From NCBI GenBank assembly GCA_900314685.1, contig OMWE01000011.1, positions 1-64,000 of the forward strand: a DNA stretch of 64,000 nucleotides, read 5' to 3'. The notes under the pieces are model-generated. The model had not been told where the DNA came from. It did not search any database and saw only the letters and a program-made list of their open reading frames with translations. Positions 2,568-48,429 of this stretch are shown here, piece by piece. The position numbers and the translations under genes are program-made. Each line of letters starts with the position of its first letter. Position 1 is the first letter of the stretch. Origin of the DNA: an uncultured Actinomycetes bacterium (GTDB lineage: Bacteria; Actinomycetota; Coriobacteriia; Coriobacteriales; Atopobiaceae).

Positions 2568-3776
2568 ATGCGCAACAAGGGCATCCGCCTCAACGTCCAG
2601 TACGCCACGATCAACGCCCTCCTGCTCGCGCAGGCGTGCGGCACGATGGGATTTGCCGCCAATTTCCTGCTGGGCAAGGGCTTCTCGAACTCGCTTTTCG
2701 GCATCGTGATGACCGCGGTTTCGATCGTGGGCGCCGTCTTTCAGGCGGTCTTTGCCCCCATCATCGACCGGTCCGACACCATATCGGAAAAGAAGTTCAT
2801 CTCCTGGACGCTCGTCGTGGCTATCGCGGGCAGTGTCCTGCTCCTCTTCATCGAGAATATCTGGCTCCTGATCCCCGTCGTTATCGTGACCTATGCCACC
2901 ACGGCGGCGGCCATGCCCTTCCTCAACTCCATCGCCTTCCTCTACGAGAAGGAGGGCGTCACGATCAACTACGGCGTGTCGCGCGGCACGGGGTCGGCCG
3001 CCTATGCCGTGGCGGGCTGGATCTTTGGGCAGTTTCTCATCTCGCACAGCCCTGCGCTGCTGCCTTGGTTCTATATCATCCTGAGCGGCCTCACCCTGCT
3101 CGCGGTCGTCACGCTGCCCGACCCGTCGCCGCTCGCCGAGGCGGACGCGAGCTTTGAGCAGGGCAAGGACAACGCCGGCAGCCTCTCCTACCCCGATTTC
3201 TTCCGCAAGTACCGCATCCTCACCCTGGTCTTTTTCGGCATGGCCCTGATGTATTTCTGCCATATGCTCATCAACAACTTCATGATCAACGTGGTCGGCG
3301 CGATCGTCGGAGCCGAAGGCGCGTCGGGCTACCAGGGCACCGCCGTCTTTATCCAGGCGATGGTCGAGCTGCCCACCATGTTCCTCTTTGCCCAGATCAT
3401 GAGGCGGTTCTCGATCGACCGCCTCATGGCCTTTGCGGCGGTCATGTACTCGGTCAAGCACGTCGTGGTCTTTGCGTCGGTCCTCACGGGCTCCATCGCG
3501 CTCTACTACGTCGGCATGACCCTGCAGATGCTGAGCTACGCCGTGCTGGTTCCCGGCTTGGTCTACTTCGCCAACGAGGTCTGCGCTGCAAGCGACCGCA
3601 ACAAGGGCCAATCGGTCATGGCGCTCGCCAGCACCGTGGGTGGCCTCTTCGCGAGCTTTGTCGGCGGCATCCTCTTCGACACGCTGCCCGTGAGCGGCGT
3701 GATGGGCGTCGGTGCCGTAGTCTCCGTGCTCGGCACCGTGCTCGTCGTGCTCGCGATGCGCCGCCGCGGCGCCTAA
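2568..3776 (+). CDS. Major facilitator superfamily transporter, sugar/oligosaccharide permease-like
   Basis: The protein has 402 residues and about twelve hydrophobic segments, starting at the ATG at 2568 behind GAAGGGGAC. The N-terminus KGIRLNVQYATINALLLAQACGTMGFAANF and the loop FAPIIDRSDTISEKKF between helices 2 and 3 follow MFS symporter layout; the overall pattern is closest to the LacY/oligosaccharide-H+ symporter branch, which is an inference. A central charged loop near residues 185-215 separates the two six-helix halves. It converges on the GH13 alpha-glucosidase and shares four bases (CTAA) with its end, so permease and glucosidase are adjacent but not in one transcript. The substrate is not shown by sequence. 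Confidence 0.8.
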   Translation: MRNKGIRLNVQYATINALLLAQACGTMGFAANFLLGKGFSNSLFGIVMTAVSIVGAVFQAVFAPIIDRSDTISEKKFISWTLVVAIAGSVLLLFIENIWLLIPVVIVTYATTAAAMPFLNSIAFLYEKEGVTINYGVSRGTGSAAYAVAGWIFGQFLISHSPALLPWFYIILSGLTLLAVVTLPDPSPLAEADASFEQGKDNAGSLSYPDFFRKYRILTLVFFGMALMYFCHMLINNFMINVVGAIVGAEGASGYQGTAVFIQAMVELPTMFLFAQIMRRFSIDRLMAFAAVMYSVKHVVVFASVLTGSIALYYVGMTLQMLSYAVLVPGLVYFANEVCAASDRNKGQSVMALASTVGGLFASFVGGILFDTLPVSGVMGVGAVVSVLGTVLVVLAMRRRGA

Positions 3777-5446
3777 CGGCGGTAGACGACCGCCTCGTAG
3801 GGACGCAACGCGCCCGGCTGGGCATCGGCGCCCTGGCTGGAGGCAGCGAGCTCGGCACCTGCGACCAGCGCCGTATCGTAGGTTGCAGGCTCGGGCGACA
3901 GGTTGACAAAGACGAGCGCCTCGGTCTCGGCATCCTTGCGCGCATAGCCAAAGACCTGCTCGTCGCCCGGCACGAGCTCGGTGAAGTCACCGTCCACCAG
4001 CACAGGCAGCTCGCCGCGCAGCGCCACCAGGCGGCGGTACCAGGCGAGCACGGAGTCGGGGTCGGCGGACTCGGCCGCCACGTTGTGGGTCTTGTACTGC
4101 TCGTTGACGGCGAGCCACGGCGTGCCCGTCGTGAAGCCGGCATTGGCCGTGTCGTCCCAGTGCATGGGCGTGCGCGCGTTGTCGCGGCTGTAGCCCCAGA
4201 CGGCCTCGAGCGCCTCCTGCTCGGAGAGGCCCGCGGCCAGCGCCTCGGCATAGGTGCTCTTGGACTGCGGGTCGTTGTAGAGGTCGATCGAGGGCAGGTG
4301 CAGATTGCAGACGCCCAGCTCCTCGCCCTGGTAGATAAAGGGCGTGCCGCGCATCGTGAGCAGCAGCATGCCGAGCGCCTTGGCCGCGTCGTCCGTCCGG
4401 CCCGCCGGCACCGCCTCGGGCAGGAAGTGGTCCACGGAGCGGGGCTGGTCGTGGTTCTCAAAGAAGACCGGGCACCAGCCGAGGCCGGCCACGGCGTCCT
4501 CGGTCTTGACGAGCTCGCGGACGAGCGTGCTCTTCTTCCAGTCGACCTTGTGGTACCAGACCTCGGTACCGCCCAGGGGCACCTTGGTGTGCTCGAAGCC
4601 GAAGACCATGTCAAAGACGCCGTCTCTGCCGACCCACTGGGGCAGCTCCTCGGCGGCGACCATATTGGCCTCGCCGACGGTGAAGATGTCGTGGCCGTCG
4701 CGGACCTGGCGCTTGAACTCGTGCAGGAAGTCCAGGATGCCCGGCACGTTGCCCGTCACCGAGCGCACGTCCACCATGCCGTCGCCGGCGTCGGGCTCGG
4801 CGTCCGCGAAGACCGCGGGCTTCTTGATGAAGGTGATCGCGTCGATGCGGAAGCCGCCCACGCCCTTGGCCACCCACCAGTTGGCCACGTCGTAGATGGC
4901 CTGACGGACCTCGGGGCACTCCCAATTGAGGTCGGGCTGATAGGTGCCGAAGGTGTGCAGGTAGTACTGCTGGCGCGCCTCGCACCACTCCCAGGCCGAG
5001 CCGCCGAAGCAGCTGCGCCAGTTGGTGGGCACGCTGCCGTCGGGCTTGGGGTCGGCCCAGACGTACCAGTCGGCTTTGGCGTTGTCGCGGCTGGAGCTGG
5101 ACTCGACGAACCAGGGGTTCTCGTCGGACGTGTGATTGAAGACCAGGTCCATCACGATCTTGATCCCGCGCGCGTCGGCCTGGGCGAGCAGCTCGTCGAA
5201 GTCGCCCATCGTGCCGTAGCTCGGGTCGATCTGGTAGTAGTCCTGGACGTCGTAGCCGTTGTCCTTCTGCGGCGACTTGTACATGGGGGTCAGCCAGAGG
5301 GCGCCCACACCCAGCGACGCCAGGTGGTCCAGGCGCGACGTGATGCCGGCGATGGTGCCGGTACCTGCGCCTTTGGTGTCCTGGAAGCTCTTGGGATACG
5401 CCTCGTAGGCGATCGTCTTTTGCCACCACGCGAGCTGCTCTGCCAT
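3773..5446 (-). CDS. GH13 alpha-glucosidase (oligo-1,6-glucosidase / GH13_31-like)
   Basis: The 557-residue cytoplasmic enzyme (no signal peptide) starts at the ATG at 5444-5446 behind CAGGAGG. Region I is DLVFNHT (D100-T106); QPDLNW (170-175) is the region V typical of the oligo-1,6-glucosidase subfamily; region II GGFRIDAI holds nucleophile D202; TVGEAN holds acid/base E259; FFENHDQPR holds D333. The residue after the nucleophile is Ala203. In this subfamily Val at that place goes with alpha-1,6 and Ala/Thr with alpha-1,4 preference, so a maltase-like specificity is possible. A Phe-Glu-Asn-His-Asp motif and a C-terminal beta domain complete the fold. Trehalose-6-phosphate hydrolase is an alternative reading. 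Confidence 0.92.
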   Translation of the reverse strand: MAEQLAWWQKTIAYEAYPKSFQDTKGAGTGTIAGITSRLDHLASLGVGALWLTPMYKSPQKDNGYDVQDYYQIDPSYGTMGDFDELLAQADARGIKIVMDLVFNHTSDENPWFVESSSSRDNAKADWYVWADPKPDGSVPTNWRSCFGGSAWEWCEARQQYYLHTFGTYQPDLNWECPEVRQAIYDVANWWVAKGVGGFRIDAITFIKKPAVFADAEPDAGDGMVDVRSVTGNVPGILDFLHEFKRQVRDGHDIFTVGEANMVAAEELPQWVGRDGVFDMVFGFEHTKVPLGGTEVWYHKVDWKKSTLVRELVKTEDAVAGLGWCPVFFENHDQPRSVDHFLPEAVPAGRTDDAAKALGMLLLTMRGTPFIYQGEELGVCNLHLPSIDLYNDPQSKSTYAEALAAGLSEQEALEAVWGYSRDNARTPMHWDDTANAGFTTGTPWLAVNEQYKTHNVAAESADPDSVLAWYRRLVALRGELPVLVDGDFTELVPGDEQVFGYARKDAETEALVFVNLSPEPATYDTALVAGAELAASSQGADAQPGALRPYEAVVYRR

Positions 5447-6539: not shown

Positions 6540-6581
6540 GGCCGTCTTCGGGTGGCCGCCTTCGGGTGGCCGTCTTCGGGT
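6540..6581 (+). repeat. Short tandem repeat, three 14-bp units
   Basis: Three successive 14-base units of the form GGCCGYCTTCGGGT start at 6540, immediately after the ygiD stop, differing at one base. They open a 520-base intergenic stretch that holds no recognisable gene before yaaA ends at 7058. Confidence 0.75.
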
Positions 6582-6684
6582 GGGCACACCTGCCCGAAGG
6601 AGGTGCCGACTTTCCCCTGCCGCACGGAAACGCCCACCACCCGAGGACACCTACCAACCCGAGGCCGACCCCGGAGGCGCAAAA

Positions 6685-6886
6685 CCCCCGAAGGCGGGGT
6701 TTTCCGCAACCGCAGAAAAGTGCGGGTAAGGGGGCGAGTGCCGGGAGGCGCATCGCCCCCCAACGCCTGGTTTTCCGCATCTCTGCAGAAAACAGCGCCC
6801 AGGGGGGTTCTTGCCATGATCGGGCGACCCCCTCGGGCAGGGTTTTCTGCAACCCTGCGGAAAACCGTGGGTAAGGGGGTCGCCCG
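6685..6886. repeat. Cluster of three dispersed palindromic repeats (GGTTTTCCGCA family)
   Basis: Three imperfect hairpins lie head to tail: cores at 6698-6720, 6769-6793 and 6841-6866. Each core has a left arm GGTTTTCYGCA and a right arm TGCNGAAAAC(C), and each is bracketed by a run of C on the left and a run of G on the right. The third copy is complete: a 13-base outer arm CGGGCGACCCCCT at 6821-6833 pairs exactly with 6874-6886. The same family recurs at 53225-53507. The rest of 6582-7057 holds nothing else I can name; reading frames across it are repeat-derived and low in coding character. Confidence 0.85.
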
Positions 6887-8467: not shown

Positions 8468-9327
8468 GTTTCCTCCAACCAGCGAGCCACACCTTGCTCG
8501 GTGATAGGCGGGCAGACCTCGTCCGCGACCGCCTTGAACTCCGGTGTGGCATTTCCCATGGCCACGAGGGTTCCCACATGGCCAGCCATCTGCAGGTCGT
8601 TGCCCGAGTCCCCGAAGGCGACCGAGCGCGCCTGGTCGATCCCCGCGAGTGCACAGAGCTGGTCGAGCGCCGTGCCCTTGTTGACACCGCGCGCAGTGAT
8701 CTCGATCTCCACGACACCCATGTCAGCGAGCTCGTAGCAGCCGAGCACGGCAAGACGAGCGTGCGCCTCGTCGCGCGCTGGCACATCGGGGAAACTCATC
8801 TGAATCTTGTAGATATCCTCGTCGGTCGAGAACACGTACTCCCGTGCAGAGTCGATGTATACCGTATCGGCAAGGAGCTCTTTGAGCGCAGCGTCTGCCG
8901 CCTGCTCTCCCACGCCCTGCGGAGTCGATCCCCGCAGCATGTAGTTGACCAGTTTCTGCTCTTGGGCCATTCCCGTCCGCATAATCACGCCCAGGCCCGG
9001 CCCCAGATCGCCTACAGCATCAAAGGACCGCACGACATCGTCCCGTGAGATTGCCTTGCCATAGAGCGGCTTCTCGTCGCTCGCGCGCATGACGAGAGAC
9101 CCGTTCATCGTGACGAGCCAGTCGACCCAGGGATGCGCCTGGATGGGGCGCAGCATCTGGACGGGGCGGCCGCTCACGACCGCCGTCGCCGCACCGAGCT
9201 CGTGGATACGCTCGAGCGCCGCCTGCACGCGAGGATGCATGTCCTTGTCCCCATGATCGAGCGTGGTGTCGTCGAGGTCGAAGGCGACCAAGGACGGAAT
9301 CTGGGCGGGTTTCGTTTCGCTCGGCAT
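8455..9327 (-). CDS. Cof-type HAD-IIB family sugar-phosphate phosphatase
   Basis: The ATG at 9325-9327 is preceded by GAGGAGAG, which fixes this start over one 105 bases upstream in the same frame. The 290-residue protein carries HAD motif I FDLDDTTLDH, where the second Asp of the usual DxDGT is kept and Gly is replaced (DLDDTTL). Motif II is in AAVVSGRP, and motif III/IV is ARSVAFGDSGNDLQMAGHVG with the paired acidic residues. The C2B cap lies between. Such enzymes dephosphorylate sugar phosphates or flavin intermediates. It is the first gene of the pair with bcp. Confidence 0.88.
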   Translation of the reverse strand: MPSETKPAQIPSLVAFDLDDTTLDHGDKDMHPRVQAALERIHELGAATAVVSGRPVQMLRPIQAHPWVDWLVTMNGSLVMRASDEKPLYGKAISRDDVVRSFDAVGDLGPGLGVIMRTGMAQEQKLVNYMLRGSTPQGVGEQAADAALKELLADTVYIDSAREYVFSTDEDIYKIQMSFPDVPARDEAHARLAVLGCYELADMGVVEIEITARGVNKGTALDQLCALAGIDQARSVAFGDSGNDLQMAGHVGTLVAMGNATPEFKAVADEVCPPITEQGVARWLEETCLS

Positions 9328-9540: not shown

Positions 9541-11081
9541 TTGGCCAGCCAGGTATAGGCAGGGACGTCGATGCCGTAGCGCAACCCCTCGGCCTCCGCC
9601 AAGGTGCGAACAGCCAGCTCATGGTCGCGACCCTCGTGCAGGCCGCTCACACAGAGCGTGGCGAGCAGGGTCCCCACCTGGTCGCGGATGGGCAGGGCGC
9701 CGGCCACCGGACAGGTGAAGTCGGGCGACCCCATCTTGTCGATCGTGCCGCGGTCGTAGAGGTCCTGGCAGCGGCCGTCCAGCTCGTGGGCGACGTAGGC
9801 CCACAGCGACGCATGGCCGCAGGCAAGGGAGGCCTGCCGCTTGCCCTCCGCAAAGACCTGGTTGCGCGGCGCCTTGTCGTCCGACGCCCACTCAAACATC
9901 ACCAGACCGTCCGAGGCGCGCACCACGCGCACCGTGACGCCGCGGTCGTAGTCGGCTGCAAGACGTGCGGCGGCACAGCCCGTCTTCAGGGCATCCGCGC
10001 TGGTAAAGGCTCCGTGCCACCTCAGTGCCTCCTCCTGCGCCTCCAGTGCGGTCAGCGCGTCGGGCACAAGCGTGTAGCGCGCCTTGATCGCGTCGACGAT
10101 CTGCGCGCAGCGAATCGAGGAGCCGAGCGGCATCACATCGCTCTCCTTGGCACCCCGGGCAACAAGATCGGTGAAGTGCCTGGCCTCACCGTAGAAGTCA
10201 TCCACCTCGTAGGGGGCATCGATCACGCGCGGCTCGTCGCCGTCCGTGTACACCGTAGCCCGCTGACAGCGGTGCAGGTCCTCCACCACGACGCGGCCCT
10301 TGGTGCCCACCAGCGTGGCCCGGCGGGGTTTGGCCCGGTCGAAGGCGCACTCGAGCGTGGCGGTCTTGCCGCTCATCTCGAGCTCGGCGTCGGCATAGAG
10401 GTCCACCCCGTCGCCGTTGGCGATACCGGCAAAGCCCGCGACATGCGGCTCGCCTGCCGGCAGGTAGTCGTCGAGCCAGCTCGCGCAGTAGATGCCGCAG
10501 TCCAGCAGGACGCCGCCGCCCACCGGCTGGCTGTGGTACGTCTTGCCCGAGGCGATCAGGTCCGCCATATCGTTGCAGAGGGTGGTCTCCACGCGGACCA
10601 CCTCGCCTATCTCGCCTGCGTCCACCAGCTCGCGTATCTGCCGGTAGCACGGCGTCAGACGGGCCTTCATGCCCTCCATGAAGAGCGAGCCCGTCTCCTG
10701 CGCGACGCGGGCCACGTCGGCCATCTCGGCCGCGGTCAGGCAGGCGGGTTTCTCGCAGAGCACCGCCTTGCCCGCGCGCAGGGCGCGGACCGCCCAGTCG
10801 TGGTGCAGCGCGTGCGGCAGGGACAGGTAGACGGCGTCGACCTCGGGGTCGGCGAGCAGGGCGGTGTGGGCCGCGTCCGCCGCACCGAGGGCCTCGTCGG
10901 AGAAGACACCGCTGCGCTCCACACCGAACTCCCCGGCAAAGGCGGCAGCCTTCTCGGCAGACCGGCAGCTCAGCGCCACCAGCTCCGCGCCCTCGACGTG
11001 GCTCAGGCTCTGCGCGAACCGATGCGCGATGTTGCCCGCGCCGAGTATCCCCCAGCGCACGGCCTTTTTCTCTTCTTCCAT
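9537..11081 (-). CDS. Gfo/Idh/MocA oxidoreductase fused to a UPF0303 (HbpS-like) domain
   Basis: The N-terminal part (about residues 8-335) is a Gfo/Idh/MocA dehydrogenase: Rossmann motif WGILGAGNIA (10-19), YLSLPHALHH, and the catalytic-region LCEKPACL with Lys111. The C-terminal part (about 341-505) matches the UPF0303/HbpS-like fold: ALEAQEEALR, FTSADALKTG, VRASDGLVMFEW, GSPDFTCPVAGALPIRDQVGTLLATLCVSGL. That family includes haem-binding sensor and degrading proteins; the role here is unknown. At 514 residues it is about 180 longer than normal Gfo/Idh proteins. It starts 27 bases after a second Gfo/Idh gene, probably in one operon, suggesting successive sugar or cyclitol oxidation steps. 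Confidence 0.85.
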   Translation of the reverse strand: MEEEKKAVRWGILGAGNIAHRFAQSLSHVEGAELVALSCRSAEKAAAFAGEFGVERSGVFSDEALGAADAAHTALLADPEVDAVYLSLPHALHHDWAVRALRAGKAVLCEKPACLTAAEMADVARVAQETGSLFMEGMKARLTPCYRQIRELVDAGEIGEVVRVETTLCNDMADLIASGKTYHSQPVGGGVLLDCGIYCASWLDDYLPAGEPHVAGFAGIANGDGVDLYADAELEMSGKTATLECAFDRAKPRRATLVGTKGRVVVEDLHRCQRATVYTDGDEPRVIDAPYEVDDFYGEARHFTDLVARGAKESDVMPLGSSIRCAQIVDAIKARYTLVPDALTALEAQEEALRWHGAFTSADALKTGCAAARLAADYDRGVTVRVVRASDGLVMFEWASDDKAPRNQVFAEGKRQASLACGHASLWAYVAHELDGRCQDLYDRGTIDKMGSPDFTCPVAGALPIRDQVGTLLATLCVSGLHEGRDHELAVRTLAEAEGLRYGIDVPAYTWLAK

Positions 11082-11108
11082 AATGACCCCTTCTGCGCTT
11101 TTCGCGTG

Positions 11109-12143
11109 CTACGCCAACTGCCGCATGCCGTCCTCGAGGATGTGCATCTGAGCCAGGGTCTCCTCGGGCTTGACCAGCTGCGGCGCACCGTGGGCTACGG
11201 TCTCGTAGAGCGCGTCGTACCACTGGGAGTAGGTGCTGCGCACGCTGGGGACGCGCTCCTCGTGCATGCCGTCCTCGTCGTAATAGCGCAGGGTGCCCCA
11301 CTGCTCGGGCGTGTCCAGGCCAAAGTCCGCGTGGCCGGCGGGCAGGTAGAACTTCTTGAGGTCGCGCTCCTGCTGGTCCTTCTCGTACTTGATGTAGGCA
11401 CCCTTGTCGCCGTAGATCTCGAAGCTGGGGCGCTGGATGGCCATGCGGTAGTTGGAGTGCACGGTCGCCTTGAGACCAAGCTCCTCGTAGTACAGGTCGT
11501 AGTCGAAGTAGTCGCACACCATGCCCGCGCCCTGCAGCTGGCGCAGGTCGGAGTGCACGCGATCGGGTGTGCCGAACCAGGAGATGATCTGGTCCAGGCA
11601 GTGGCTGCCGTGGCCGTAGGGGGCGTTGTTCACCTGGTCCATCTTCCAGCCGCCCATCATCTCGGGACGGTAGTAGTCGTAGGAGGTCACGACCTCAAAG
11701 ACGTGCCCCAGTTTGCCGGATTCCACGACCTGCTTGGCCGTGAGGAAGTCGGAGTCGAAACGGCGGTTCTGGTAGCACTGGACCGTGACGCCGTTCTTGG
11801 CGGCCAGGTCGAAGAGCTCCTCGGCCTCGGCGACGGTAGCGGAGAAGGGCTTGTCCACGGTCACGTGCTTGCCGGCCTCGATCGCGCGCTTGGCCATGGA
11901 GTAGTGCAGGGCCGAGGGGGTGGTGATCTCCACCACGTCGATCTCGGGGTCGGCGAGCAGGGCGTCCATGTCGGTCGTGTACTCGACGCCGGAAATGGCG
12001 GCCCAGGCCTCGTGGTTGATGTGGCGTGCCTGCATGGCCTTGATACGGAACTTGTCGTGGCGCGCCAGGACGAAGGGCGCGTGGTAGCGGTTGGCGGACT
12101 TGCCGTTGCCGATGTAGGCGACAGTGACGATGCAATCAGACAT
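11109..12143 (-). CDS. Gfo/Idh/MocA family NAD(P)-dependent oxidoreductase
   Basis: This 344-residue protein is of normal family length. TVAYIGNGKSANRYH (residues 7-21) is the NAD(P)-binding loop, in which the usual GxGxxG reads G-N-G-K-S-A. VEITTPSALHYSMAKRAIEAGKHVTVDKPFSATV contains the conserved DKP with Lys in the active site. The C-terminal alpha/beta domain includes YGHGSHCLDQIISWFG, whose His and Asp are usual in sugar dehydrogenases of this group. It precedes the fusion gene by 27 bases and likely shares its transcript. The substrate, a sugar or inositol, cannot be assigned. Confidence 0.88.
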   Translation of the reverse strand: MSDCIVTVAYIGNGKSANRYHAPFVLARHDKFRIKAMQARHINHEAWAAISGVEYTTDMDALLADPEIDVVEITTPSALHYSMAKRAIEAGKHVTVDKPFSATVAEAEELFDLAAKNGVTVQCYQNRRFDSDFLTAKQVVESGKLGHVFEVVTSYDYYRPEMMGGWKMDQVNNAPYGHGSHCLDQIISWFGTPDRVHSDLRQLQGAGMVCDYFDYDLYYEELGLKATVHSNYRMAIQRPSFEIYGDKGAYIKYEKDQQERDLKKFYLPAGHADFGLDTPEQWGTLRYYDEDGMHEERVPSVRSTYSQWYDALYETVAHGAPQLVKPEETLAQMHILEDGMRQLA

Positions 12144-12190: not shown

Positions 12191-12979
12191 CTACGGTGCC
12201 TGCCCACAAGAGAAGGCGAGCACGTTTCTTCCCATACGCTCGCTCACGCCCGCCCGCATCTCTTCTTCCTCGGCCACGTCCTCCGGCTCGACGCCCAGGT
12301 CCTTGGCCACCAGCTCCCGGATGCGTTGCGCCAGGTAGACGTTGGTCAGCAGGTAGTCGTAGAGGGCGTCTTCCTCGCTGACGCCCAGGGCGAGCAGGAC
12401 CAGCATCGCCGCCACGCCCGTGCGGTCCTTGCCGGCGGTGCAGTGGAAGACGATCGGCACCTCCCCCGCCGCGAGATGGGCAAAGAGTCTCTTGTGTGCC
12501 ATGCTGTCAAATGCCATGCCGACGTAGATATCGTCCATCACGGCCATGGCCTTGGGCGAGAACATGTCTGCGTCGGGCGAACCGTCCTCGAGACGGTCGA
12601 GGGCGTCGACCCCCCTCACCTCGCGATACGCATCCAGGATGCGGGTGATGCCCTCAGGGGAGAAGTCGATCTCGTCGCCCCGCGCGTCGAGCATGGCACA
12701 GACGCGCTCGTAGGAGACACCGGGCAGGCGCCGGTCGGGAGTCTCGTCGGCCTCGGCGGCGCTGCGGAAGTCCAGGTCGCAACGGAAGCCGATCCGGCGC
12801 ACCCTGTCCAGCTCGCCGGCGTCCAGCCACCCCAGGGAGCCTCCGTGCCAGATGAGCCCGTGGCGCACGGTGCGTCCGTCAGACGTCCGGTATCCGCCCA
12901 GATCGCGGAAGTTGCTCAGGGTCTGAAAGGCAGCATCCCTACCGGGCCCGTACGGGCCATACAGCGCCTCGGGTGTCAT
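12191..12979 (-). CDS. Tyrosine-specific protein phosphatase family (PTP signature CTAGKDRTG)
   Basis: The ATG at 12977-12979 follows GAAGGAGACG and gives a 262-residue protein; an upstream start would lack a ribosome site. FRDLGGYRTSDGRTVRHGLIWHGGSL near residues 23-48 and the P-loop VFHCTAGKDRTGVAAMLVL are the two marks of the bacterial/fungal tyrosine and phosphoinositide phosphatase group (DSP/Y_phosphatase3). The nucleophilic Cys and the invariant Arg are both present. The protein has no signal peptide. It lies just downstream in the same direction as the damaged Gfo/Idh copy and 48 bases before the start of the intact Gfo/Idh gene. The in vivo substrate is unknown. Confidence 0.85.
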   Translation of the reverse strand: MTPEALYGPYGPGRDAAFQTLSNFRDLGGYRTSDGRTVRHGLIWHGGSLGWLDAGELDRVRRIGFRCDLDFRSAAEADETPDRRLPGVSYERVCAMLDARGDEIDFSPEGITRILDAYREVRGVDALDRLEDGSPDADMFSPKAMAVMDDIYVGMAFDSMAHKRLFAHLAAGEVPIVFHCTAGKDRTGVAAMLVLLALGVSEEDALYDYLLTNVYLAQRIRELVAKDLGVEPEDVAEEEEMRAGVSERMGRNVLAFSCGQAP

Positions 12980-46051: not shown

Positions 46052-46132
46052 GGGGAATTTCATTTCTTTTGCGTTAAGCCCATTCGGTATCATGGAGATG
46101 GCAGCTCGGCACCCCCATACGAGGAGGTCAGC

Positions 46133-47653
46133 ATGGCAGACACAACCGCAGGCGTACCCGTCTTTAGCGGCAACCCCGGCTATGGCATCCCCGACTTCAA
46201 CTACCACGACTACATCGTCGGCCACGACCACGAGGGCTACGAGCTGGTCGACAAGGGCAAGGACAGCCTCACGCTCGAGACTCCCTACGCCACCGGCACC
46301 GTGACCATCTGGGACGAGGAGATCGTCGAATTCAGCATCACCAACAAGGCGACAGACGAGAACGTCTACTACCTGCACTTCCCGCTCAACGACCGCGATC
46401 GTGCCACGTCCCTCTACGACGAGTTCGTAGCCGCTTTGATCGACCAGCAGAATCACCGTACCGTCAACGTCCTGCTGTCCTGCACGTCGGGCTGGACCAC
46501 CACCCTCTTCGCCAACAAGCTCAACCGCGCGGCAAAGACCCTCTCGCTCGACTACAGCTTCGAAGCGGTGCCTGCGGGCGACCTTTACGAGCAGGGCATG
46601 GCGCACGACGTCGTACTGCTCGCCCCGCAGGTCAACTACCTCTACGAGCAGGCGCGCAACGCCCTGCCCGAGAAACCCGTCATCCAAATCCCGACCAATC
46701 TCTTCGCCACCGAGGACGCTGGGGCCTGCATCCAACTCGTGCGCGATGCGCTGGAGCAGCAAGACACGCTCAGAAAGAAGGAAGAGCAGCAAAAGCCCTG
46801 CGCCTGCAAGCCGCTTCCCCTGCGCATCCTCTGCATCCTTGTACGCCAGACGGCGATCCGCGTGGAGCTTGTCTGGCAGCTGAGCGACGGCGGCGAGGTC
46901 GTGCGCAAGGGCGACGTGACGAAGAAATACGGCACGATGAAGCTCTACCGCCATGGCAACCCTCGCGAGAAGAACCGCTCCGTCATCACCCCGGCGGACT
47001 TCACCGACCTGATCGGGTCCGTCCTGTGCATCGAACCCGAAGACACCAAGATCGACGCCATCGCCGTCGCCATGGTCGGCTCGGTCTACAAGGGGGTAGT
47101 CAGTCTTCCCAATTCGGAATTCGACGGTCTCAACCTGGAGGAATACATCAGCAGCCGCTTCCATATACCGGCCATCGTCTCCAATAACGTGAACGCCGCT
47201 GCCCTGGGCTGGTACGAACAACAGAGCGACTACCAGACCATCGTCTTCCACTCACAGAGCCGCGGTATCGTGGTAGGCGGACAGGGCCTCATCATCGACG
47301 GTCACCTGCACGAGGGTAGAAACTCCGACGCCGGCGAGATCCAGCGTTTCCTCGCCGAGCTCCCCTCCCCCGACGCCCAGCTCTGGCACTATGGGCACCG
47401 CGTCTGGGACCCGACGCGCATCGTGCAGATGCTCGCGCAGGTCTTTGCGGTCGATATCGGCACCATCGCCCCCGAGGCCATCTGCGTGCGCTCGCGTCTG
47501 ACGCCGGATATGGAAGCGATTCGCAAGGAGCTCCTCAACTACGTACCCGAGGAGGCCATCCCCGACCTCATCTATGTCCCCAATTTCACGCCATACGTGT
47601 ACGGCGGACTCATCTCGATGGCACAGAAGCGTTTGGGGAAGAAGAAATCATGA
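46133..47653 (+). CDS. PTS EIIB (lactose/cellobiose type)-ROK chimeric protein, probable sensor
   Basis: ATG 46133 follows GAGGAGG. Three parts are seen in 506 residues. Residues 1-108 are an unassigned domain. Residues about 110-208 are an EIIB of the lactose/cellobiose type: VNVLLSCTSGWTTTLFANKL with phospho-Cys C117, then DVVLLAPQVNYLYEQAR. Residues about 230-500 are ROK-like: IDAIAVAMVGSVYKGVVSLP, IVSNNVNAAALGWYE, GIVVGGQGLIIDGHLHEG and SDAGEIQRF. The DxGGTK ATP motif is replaced (RILCILVRQTAI), the catalytic Asp of NDANAAA is Asn352, and the zinc CGxxGC motif is absent, so kinase activity is doubtful. There is no helix-turn-helix. It overlaps the nitroreductase gene by four bases. Confidence 0.85.
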   Translation: MADTTAGVPVFSGNPGYGIPDFNYHDYIVGHDHEGYELVDKGKDSLTLETPYATGTVTIWDEEIVEFSITNKATDENVYYLHFPLNDRDRATSLYDEFVAALIDQQNHRTVNVLLSCTSGWTTTLFANKLNRAAKTLSLDYSFEAVPAGDLYEQGMAHDVVLLAPQVNYLYEQARNALPEKPVIQIPTNLFATEDAGACIQLVRDALEQQDTLRKKEEQQKPCACKPLPLRILCILVRQTAIRVELVWQLSDGGEVVRKGDVTKKYGTMKLYRHGNPREKNRSVITPADFTDLIGSVLCIEPEDTKIDAIAVAMVGSVYKGVVSLPNSEFDGLNLEEYISSRFHIPAIVSNNVNAAALGWYEQQSDYQTIVFHSQSRGIVVGGQGLIIDGHLHEGRNSDAGEIQRFLAELPSPDAQLWHYGHRVWDPTRIVQMLAQVFAVDIGTIAPEAICVRSRLTPDMEAIRKELLNYVPEEAIPDLIYVPNFTPYVYGGLISMAQKRLGKKKS

Positions 47654-48429
47654 ATCCTTTTGACCAGCTCGCGGCAAATGAGCTCGCTGCCGCCGCAGCC
47701 ACCCGCGTGTCGGAGCGCGCCTATGCAGACCGTCCCGTGGAGCAAGACAAGATCGAGCAGCTACGCGCCTGCATCGAGGCGGTCAATACGGCGGAGCCCT
47801 GCCTCGACTTCCAGCTCTACGGCCCGCTTGACAGTGCCGGTGCGGCTGTCGGCATCAACGCGCGCATGTTCACGGGCACCTTCCACTGGTACGCGGCGCT
47901 CGTCTCCGACGCCGACGACCTCGCACTCGAGAAGTGCGGCTACTACGGCCAAGAGCTCGTCTTGCTCGCCACGCACCTGGGCCTCGGCACCTGCTGGGTG
48001 GCGGGCACCTTCGACCGCGAGATCACCGATGCCACGATTGGAGACGGCCAGGCCCTCGTCGCCATCATCCCCATCGGATACGCGCAGGAAAAGACACCCT
48101 TCGCCCAGCGCGCCATCCGCACCAATATACGCCGCAGGTCAAAGAAACCCGAGGAGACCGTCGAGGCAGACGTACCCTACGCTGAGCTTCCCTCCTGGAT
48201 CCGCTCCGGCGCCGAGGCGATCATCGCCGGCCCCTCCGCCGTCAACCAGGAACCCGTCGTACTGACCTGGCAGGACGGCACGCTGACCGCCCGCTATGTC
48301 GTGAAGGACAAGCCGCGCGAGATCACCATCGTCGACTTCGGCATCGCCAAGCTCGACTTCGAGCGTCTCTGCGGCAGGCCCGGCCGCTGGGACTGGGGTC
48401 AGGGCAGCGCCTACCATCCGGCTGTCTAG
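47650..48429 (+). CDS. Nitroreductase-family flavoprotein (TM1586-like)
   Basis: The 259-residue protein starts within the stop of the EIIB-ROK gene (ATGA), so it is co-translated. The N-terminal RVSERAYADRPVEQDKIEQLRACIEAVN is the FMN-binding start of nitroreductases, and YYGQELVLLATHLGLGTCWVAGTFDRE with VAIIPIGYAQEK continues the fold. The second half (about 165-255) has SGAEAIIAGPSAVNQEPVVLTWQDG, as in duplicated TM1586-type proteins. It probably reduces a small substrate with NAD(P)H; which one is unknown. It ends convergent with hypA, sharing CTAG. Confidence 0.85.
   Translation: MNPFDQLAANELAAAAATRVSERAYADRPVEQDKIEQLRACIEAVNTAEPCLDFQLYGPLDSAGAAVGINARMFTGTFHWYAALVSDADDLALEKCGYYGQELVLLATHLGLGTCWVAGTFDREITDATIGDGQALVAIIPIGYAQEKTPFAQRAIRTNIRRRSKKPEETVEADVPYAELPSWIRSGAEAIIAGPSAVNQEPVVLTWQDGTLTARYVVKDKPREITIVDFGIAKLDFERLCGRPGRWDWGQGSAYHPAV

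Follow-up and report, generated by a model that had tools for sequence, protein, structure and literature searches.

A lineage-restricted family of fused EIIB-ROK proteins as a candidate phosphotransferase-responsive module

A gene of an uncultured Atopobiaceae bacterium encodes a chain in which an EIIB domain of the sugar phosphotransferase system (PTS) is joined to a ROK domain, and the locus raises the question of what such a chain does when the ROK half has neither the ATP motif of ROK kinases nor a DNA-binding part. A reading made from the letters of the DNA (here called the sequence-only reading) had proposed a sensor that responds to PTS phosphorylation through the EIIB Cys, and had regarded the layout as one without a described counterpart. 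Indeed, no EIIB-ROK fusion was found in the literature searched, and the family is apparently undescribed, a new architecture made from known parts. The features of the locus are collected in Table 1, where positions are those of the window, the whole stretch of 64,000 nucleotides that was analysed. Rfam gave no match within this 64-kb window.

Table 1. Features of the fusion locus and of the separate halves in the same genome
Feature	Position	Strand	Description and basis
Fusion CDS	46133..47653	+	N-domain/EIIB/ROK, 506 aa, ATG start
Ribosome-binding site AGGAGG	46122..46127	+	ATG 5 bases on; sequence
N-terminal domain, residues about 20-108	46190..46456	+	AlphaFold2 model, VIA-align, Foldseek
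EIIB domain, lactose/cellobiose type, residues 109-208	46457..46756	+	PF02302, PDB matches, dN/dS
Cys117 codon, predicted phosphorylation site	46481..46483	+	Invariant, 59/59 non-redundant members
Variable linker, residues 209-230	46757..46822	+	dN/dS 0.22, aligns poorly
Degenerate ROK domain, residues 231-506	46823..47650	+	PF00480, profile matches to ROK structures, motif table
Asn352 codon, position of ROK catalytic Asp	47186..47188	+	Sequence and alignment with relatives
TM1586-type nitroreductase	47650..48429	+	PF14512, E 1.8e-40; beside orthologue too
Separate halves	L038 8183-10823 (window genome G000, contig C20)		Row N-EIIB, HAD phosphatase, winged-helix-type ROK, glyoxalase, PHP hydrolase, MFS

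Three domains in one chain

The EIIB domain was identified by Pfam as PTS_IIB (PF02302) at residues 112-195 (E 1.4e-8, 35.7 bits against a cut-off of 23.6), and residues 112-199 matched chitobiose/cellobiose EIIB in a search of PDB sequences. Eighty-one family sequences were collected, and conservation was counted over 59 non-redundant members (<85% identity). Thr122, Pro165, and Gln166 were, like Cys117, invariant in all 59, which together with PF02302 supports the proposed phosphorylatable Cys of a lactose/cellobiose-type EIIB. Between the window species and a second species of its genus, dN/dS was 0.011 for EIIB, 0.13 for the N-terminal domain, 0.19 for ROK, and 0.22 for the linker; EIIB is thus the most constrained part in this two-species comparison. 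The NCBIfam lactose/cellobiose subfamily model TIGR00853 scored 56.1 bits, under its cut-off of 110, so an EIIB domain is present but the fusion is not a classical PTS subunit. With free lactose/cellobiose EIIB subunits the domain shares the Cys loop, the LAPQ block (LGPQ in the free subunits), and PF02302; it differs from them in falling below the subfamily cut-off, in being fused on both sides, and in standing apart in the EIIB tree.

In the ROK half, Pfam placed ROK (PF00480) at residues 301-403 (E 2.7e-14, 53.8 bits against a cut-off of 22.9), and the C-terminal part matched XylR and ROK kinases in the PDB sequence search. Pfam, PDB sequences, and alignment thereby confirmed the anatomy first proposed, an EIIB with Cys117 and a degenerate ROK domain. 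The DxGGT ATP motif occurred in none of the 59 members, and position 352 was Asn in 45 (the window protein among them), Asp in 12, and Ser in 2. The window protein is missing the zinc motif CxCGxxGC and has one Cys only past residue 402; the GH and zinc-site residues are lost, the sugar site is retained only in part, and the phosphate loop bears an insertion in the family alignment. Retained are Asn351 (56/59), the PG motif (57/59; the window protein has VG), Glu402 of the AGE block (52/59), and five glycines. The fusion shares with ROK kinases (glucokinase, NanK, BglK) the fold, the glycine-rich loops, and the NxxNAA and AGE blocks, and differs from them in having no DxGGT, Asn in place of the catalytic Asp, and no GH or zinc motif, as well as in its separate place in the tree.

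In a ROK tree of limited sampling, the fused clade (93/91) grouped with winged-helix-type ROKs, apart from the ROK kinases of related genomes (100/99). The repressors NagC, XylR, and Mlc provided the nearest ROK domain in both profile and tree, although the fusion is without their winged helix: no HTH match was found in 58 N-terminal domains of the family, and neither an HTH nor a PRD match in the window protein. On sequence grounds, the ROK half is repressor-derived and distinct from the ROK kinases. The sequence-only reading had excluded kinases and repressors alike. Its exclusion of an ATP-dependent kinase is supported by the loss of DxGGT in every member, by Asn at 352 and the missing zinc motif of the window protein, and by the position in the tree away from kinases. 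Its exclusion of repressors holds for the molecule, in which the HTH search found no DNA-binding domain, but not for its descent. Loss of the catalytic Asp applies to the window protein and not to the whole family, whereas loss of DxGGT is universal; of the two features whose joint presence in homologues that reading took as evidence against a sensor, Asp occurs in 12 members and DxGGT in none.

A full-length AlphaFold2 model (window protein and one orthologue) reached a pLDDT of 33 and was unusable. The isolated N-terminal domain, in a model built on two sequences, gave a pLDDT of 80 and a pTM of 0.70, with a helix, five strands, and a helix. VIA-align of this two-sequence model matched the TriTu immunity protein 7zhm_C with Z 9.2 and rmsd 2.2 over 77 residues, the next rows having Z 7.7 or lower, and the best Foldseek match was the same protein. 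The TriTu family PF24689 scored 19.7 bits in Pfam against a cut-off of 27, with any match in only 2 of 58 members; no Pfam family or PDB sequence family was above cut-off, and a PDB-sequence profile search gave nothing convincing. Residues 1-108, called an unknown domain before, still belong to no family above cut-off, but their predicted fold resembles that of an immunity protein. In this two-sequence model, residues 20-108 resemble the TriTu immunity protein of Salmonella Rhs1 in predicted fold, at 12% identity and in another context, and such a likeness implies nothing about toxins or about function here. A protein-binding role for the domain is a guess.

Distribution of the fusion and its split and extended forms

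An orthologue with 88% identity is present in the second species of the window genus (L039 8995-10503), and the search for relatives added some 17 full-length or near-full-length fusions at 30-44% identity. Of 140 genomes from the GTDB family of the window, 88 matched in a profile search (E 1e-15), and these covered 20 genera, but the full-length fusion was confined to five genera of this one family (g1, the window genus, and g2, g9, g20, and g28). In g9 and g28 a genome usually has 3-8 copies. Among 398 genomes of the class (E 1e-30), all carriers lay within the window's GTDB family, and among 396 Actinomycetota genomes (E 1e-25) the window genome was the sole carrier. Viral contigs gave no relative, and plasmids gave only separate ROK or EIIB matches. 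Some relatives have in-frame stops. Given the 88% orthologue, full-length relatives in dozens of genomes, and an overall dN/dS of 0.145, the fusion is not a product of chance; it is real, under selection, and, among the Actinomycetota genomes covered, lineage-restricted. At L037 5788-9340 of the window genome, a second fused paralogue, 536 aa long, lies behind a HAD-phosphatase gene and a gene for an RpiR-like SIS-domain protein.

The same genome also encodes the halves as separate genes (Table 1), an N-domain-plus-EIIB protein of 207 aa (L038 10200-10823) and a ROK protein of 326 aa (L038 8183-9163) whose N terminus, 'WNKADLVEATGLSTGALTQILQELQ', was judged by eye to be of winged-helix type; Pfam identified ROK only. 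This gene order recurs in G003, across two contigs. The N-EIIB gene adjoins the winged-helix-type ROK in two genomes only, and N-EIIB is missing from two further genera in which that ROK occurs. The split EIIB branches as sister to the fused clade (85/74) in the EIIB tree, both away from ordinary EIIBs (100/99), and the split ROK is likewise sister to the fused clade in the ROK tree. The simplest history suggested by these trees would be that a two-gene EIIB/repressor pair became fused, lost its DNA-binding part, and then multiplied, with moderate support for the relative order of the split and fused forms.

In three genomes, a conserved palindrome, CTTKCTTC-N7-GAAGMAAG, precedes the gene for the winged-helix-type ROK (L038 about 9218-9240, L055 about 3830-3855, L182 about 8780-8805) and could be an operator or a terminator. 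As it has one copy in the window genome and none in the window, it was rejected as a tie between the fusion and that repressor.

In a further clade, of 737 aa, a calcineurin-like phosphoesterase stands ahead of N-EIIB-ROK (L050 7899-10112, L105 8501-10714, L045 5524-7737, and others). Its metal motifs do not vary across 18 sequences, and the enzyme appears from them to be intact. In genus g9, the phosphoesterase fusion follows genes for EIIC, an EIIA (PF02255) that retains its active-site His, and the 6-phospho-N-acetylmuramidase MupG. The idea that the fusion supplies the sole EIIB of this operon was dropped because free EIIB frames occur there: the one in L123 (1305-1610) is intact, and those of L105, L137, and L138, as assembled, look disrupted. 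In the latter the middle appears to be missing and the frame changed (L105 about 3122-3310 and 6573-6750, L137 about 11001-11205, L138 about 12405-12579), by either decay or misassembly of a repeat.

Genomic context and PTS partners

The start of the nitroreductase gene overlaps the stop of the fusion by 4 bases (ATGA). The co-translation proposed earlier is in keeping with this overlap and with the same neighbor beside the orthologue, but beyond the two species of the window genus that carry the fusion gene the linkage is not seen. The seven phospho-beta-glucosidase genes previously listed for the window were confirmed as GH1; they are scattered over 59 kb (1-58813) on both strands and do not form one operon. 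That the window has no PTS permease is also correct, in that the window genome has seven EIIC matches (PF02378) and none on the window contig. This absence says little, however, since those EIIC genes and a complete cellobiose-type EIIA-EIIB-EIIC row, which includes the one EIIA of the genome, lie elsewhere; the genome has one HPr and ordinary free EIIBs. All 22 fusion genomes tested have lactose-type EIIA (1-3) and several EIIC, a count that covers fusion-bearing genomes only, and EIIA may be equally common in genomes without the fusion.

The same-strand gene just upstream of the fusion was of a sugar-metabolism class in 21 of 58 loci, and the one just downstream in 3 of 56; the upstream enrichment was noticed before it was counted, the loci are related, and the simple gene-call script misses some small genes, so that the p-value of this comparison serves as a guide only. 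In G009, a MATE transporter gene lies between two similar long inverted repeats, each about 60 bases in length and having arms of GGGGGAGTACCCCC type (L183 5740-5845 and 7246-7385).

A working model and its alternatives

We consider it fairly probable that the fusion is a regulatory module responsive to PTS phosphorylation, a pair like Mlc and its EIIB in one chain minus the DNA-binding part. The sensor first proposed is supported by the invariant Cys, the near-frozen EIIB, the EIIA found in 22 of 22 fusion genomes tested, the PTS operon occupied by one clade, and the split form with its winged-helix-type ROK. The grouping of the ROK half with repressors, the ATP motif lost throughout the family, and the frequent sugar-metabolism gene just upstream also speak for the module. 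We infer the phosphorylation, signal direction, domain coupling, ligand, and output of such a module as follows. At low sugar flux, a lactose/cellobiose-type EIIA fed via HPr would phosphorylate Cys117; upon sugar uptake, phosphate would be drained and the EIIB domain left unphosphorylated. Within the chain, the ROK pseudokinase domain would receive the EIIB state; this domain would no longer use ATP, and the remnant of its cleft might additionally bind and sense a sugar or its phosphate. In the split form the output would be transcription, since the partner ROK has a winged-helix-type N terminus; in the phosphoesterase clade it would presumably be the fused enzyme; and in the stand-alone form of the window it may run through a protein partner, e.g., some ligand of the N-terminal domain or a ROK repressor. 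Against this model stand the stand-alone form without an output domain and the window neighbor, which is a nitroreductase and not a sugar or PTS gene. The pairing of N-EIIB with the winged-helix-type ROK in just two genomes, and that ROK without N-EIIB in two other genera, also count against it. Mlc, moreover, binds a glucose-type EIIB, which is a different fold.

The main rival is a soluble PTS-type sugar phosphotransferase, in which phosphate would pass from EIIA to the EIIB Cys and on to a sugar bound by the ROK cleft, with the EIIB domain as phosphate donor instead of ATP. Such an enzyme could explain why the ATP motif is gone yet Asn351, PG, and Glu402 are mostly kept, and it fits the 12 members with the catalytic Asp and the many members directly behind sugar genes. 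A soluble sugar kinase is nevertheless disfavored by the missing base (Asn in 45 of 59 members and in the window protein) and by the kinship of the ROK half with repressors, and the lost GH and zinc residues and the VG of the window protein also speak against it; we regard it as rather unlikely. Another possibility is that the EIIB domain works in transport as the partner of an EIIC, with the ROK and N-terminal parts as scaffold or targeting. The EIIC and EIIA in the phosphoesterase-clade row and the free EIIB frames that look disrupted in three assembled loci would suit this role, but the free EIIB of L123 is intact, 3-8 fusions per genome face 1-3 EIIA, EIIC is absent from the surroundings of most members, among them the window protein, and the window genome has ordinary free EIIBs, all of which leaves it unlikely.

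It is quite unlikely that the fusion acts in trans, pairing through its ROK domain with a winged-helix ROK repressor and titrating it according to EIIB phosphorylation, with no DNA binding of its own. ROK proteins are oligomers, and the nearest ROK relatives of the fusion are repressors, including one that the window genome itself encodes; on the other side, orthologues of that repressor (74-100% identity) occur in four genomes only, two of which are without the fusion, and most other matches of the repressor search were the fusions themselves. Least credible, to the point of being very improbable, is a decaying or accidental fusion without function: the ROK domain is degenerate and some relatives have in-frame stops, but this reading is contradicted by the EIIB dN/dS of 0.011, and purifying selection, a conserved orthologue, and many intact paralogues likewise count against it.

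Known systems share parts of the proposed arrangement. Mlc and EIICB-Glc of E. coli are two proteins, a DNA-binding repressor of the ROK family and an EIIB of glucose type with a different fold, whereas the fusion is one chain with a lactose/cellobiose-type EIIB and no DNA-binding part; common to both would be a ROK protein that answers to whether an EIIB is phosphorylated. For Mlc, control comes through an interaction with EIICB-Glc that depends on phosphorylation state (PMC5320558). Regulators of the CelR, MtlR, and LicR type have an EIIB domain of their own, which acts through a phosphorylated Cys; in CelR, this EIIB Cys matters for activity (PMC3478281). Those regulators combine HTH, PRD, and EIIA domains with a Gat/mannitol-type EIIB, whereas the fusion has ROK and TriTu-like domains.

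Speculatively, the family could represent a lineage-specific class of soluble output proteins of the PTS: a single EIIA would supply phosphate to many orphan EIIB-pseudokinase chains, every one of them linked to a sugar operon of its own, with one clade directly controlling a fused phosphoesterase so that PTS flux would set enzyme activity without transcription; or its members could be PEP-dependent soluble sugar kinases. Judged by the papers searched, no fused EIIB-ROK system was known before; the fusion, whose genome also carries a two-gene counterpart, would be the first and would offer a natural model for how the PTS phosphoryl state reaches a ROK domain, a link so far known from Mlc and EIICB-Glc. 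In the phosphoesterase form, the PTS may control an enzyme through being fused to it. That these uncultured actinobacteria, among them the rumen genome RUG078, have many paralogues each suggests a role in sugar choice. The proposed module would be a testable new way for bacteria to sense sugar uptake.
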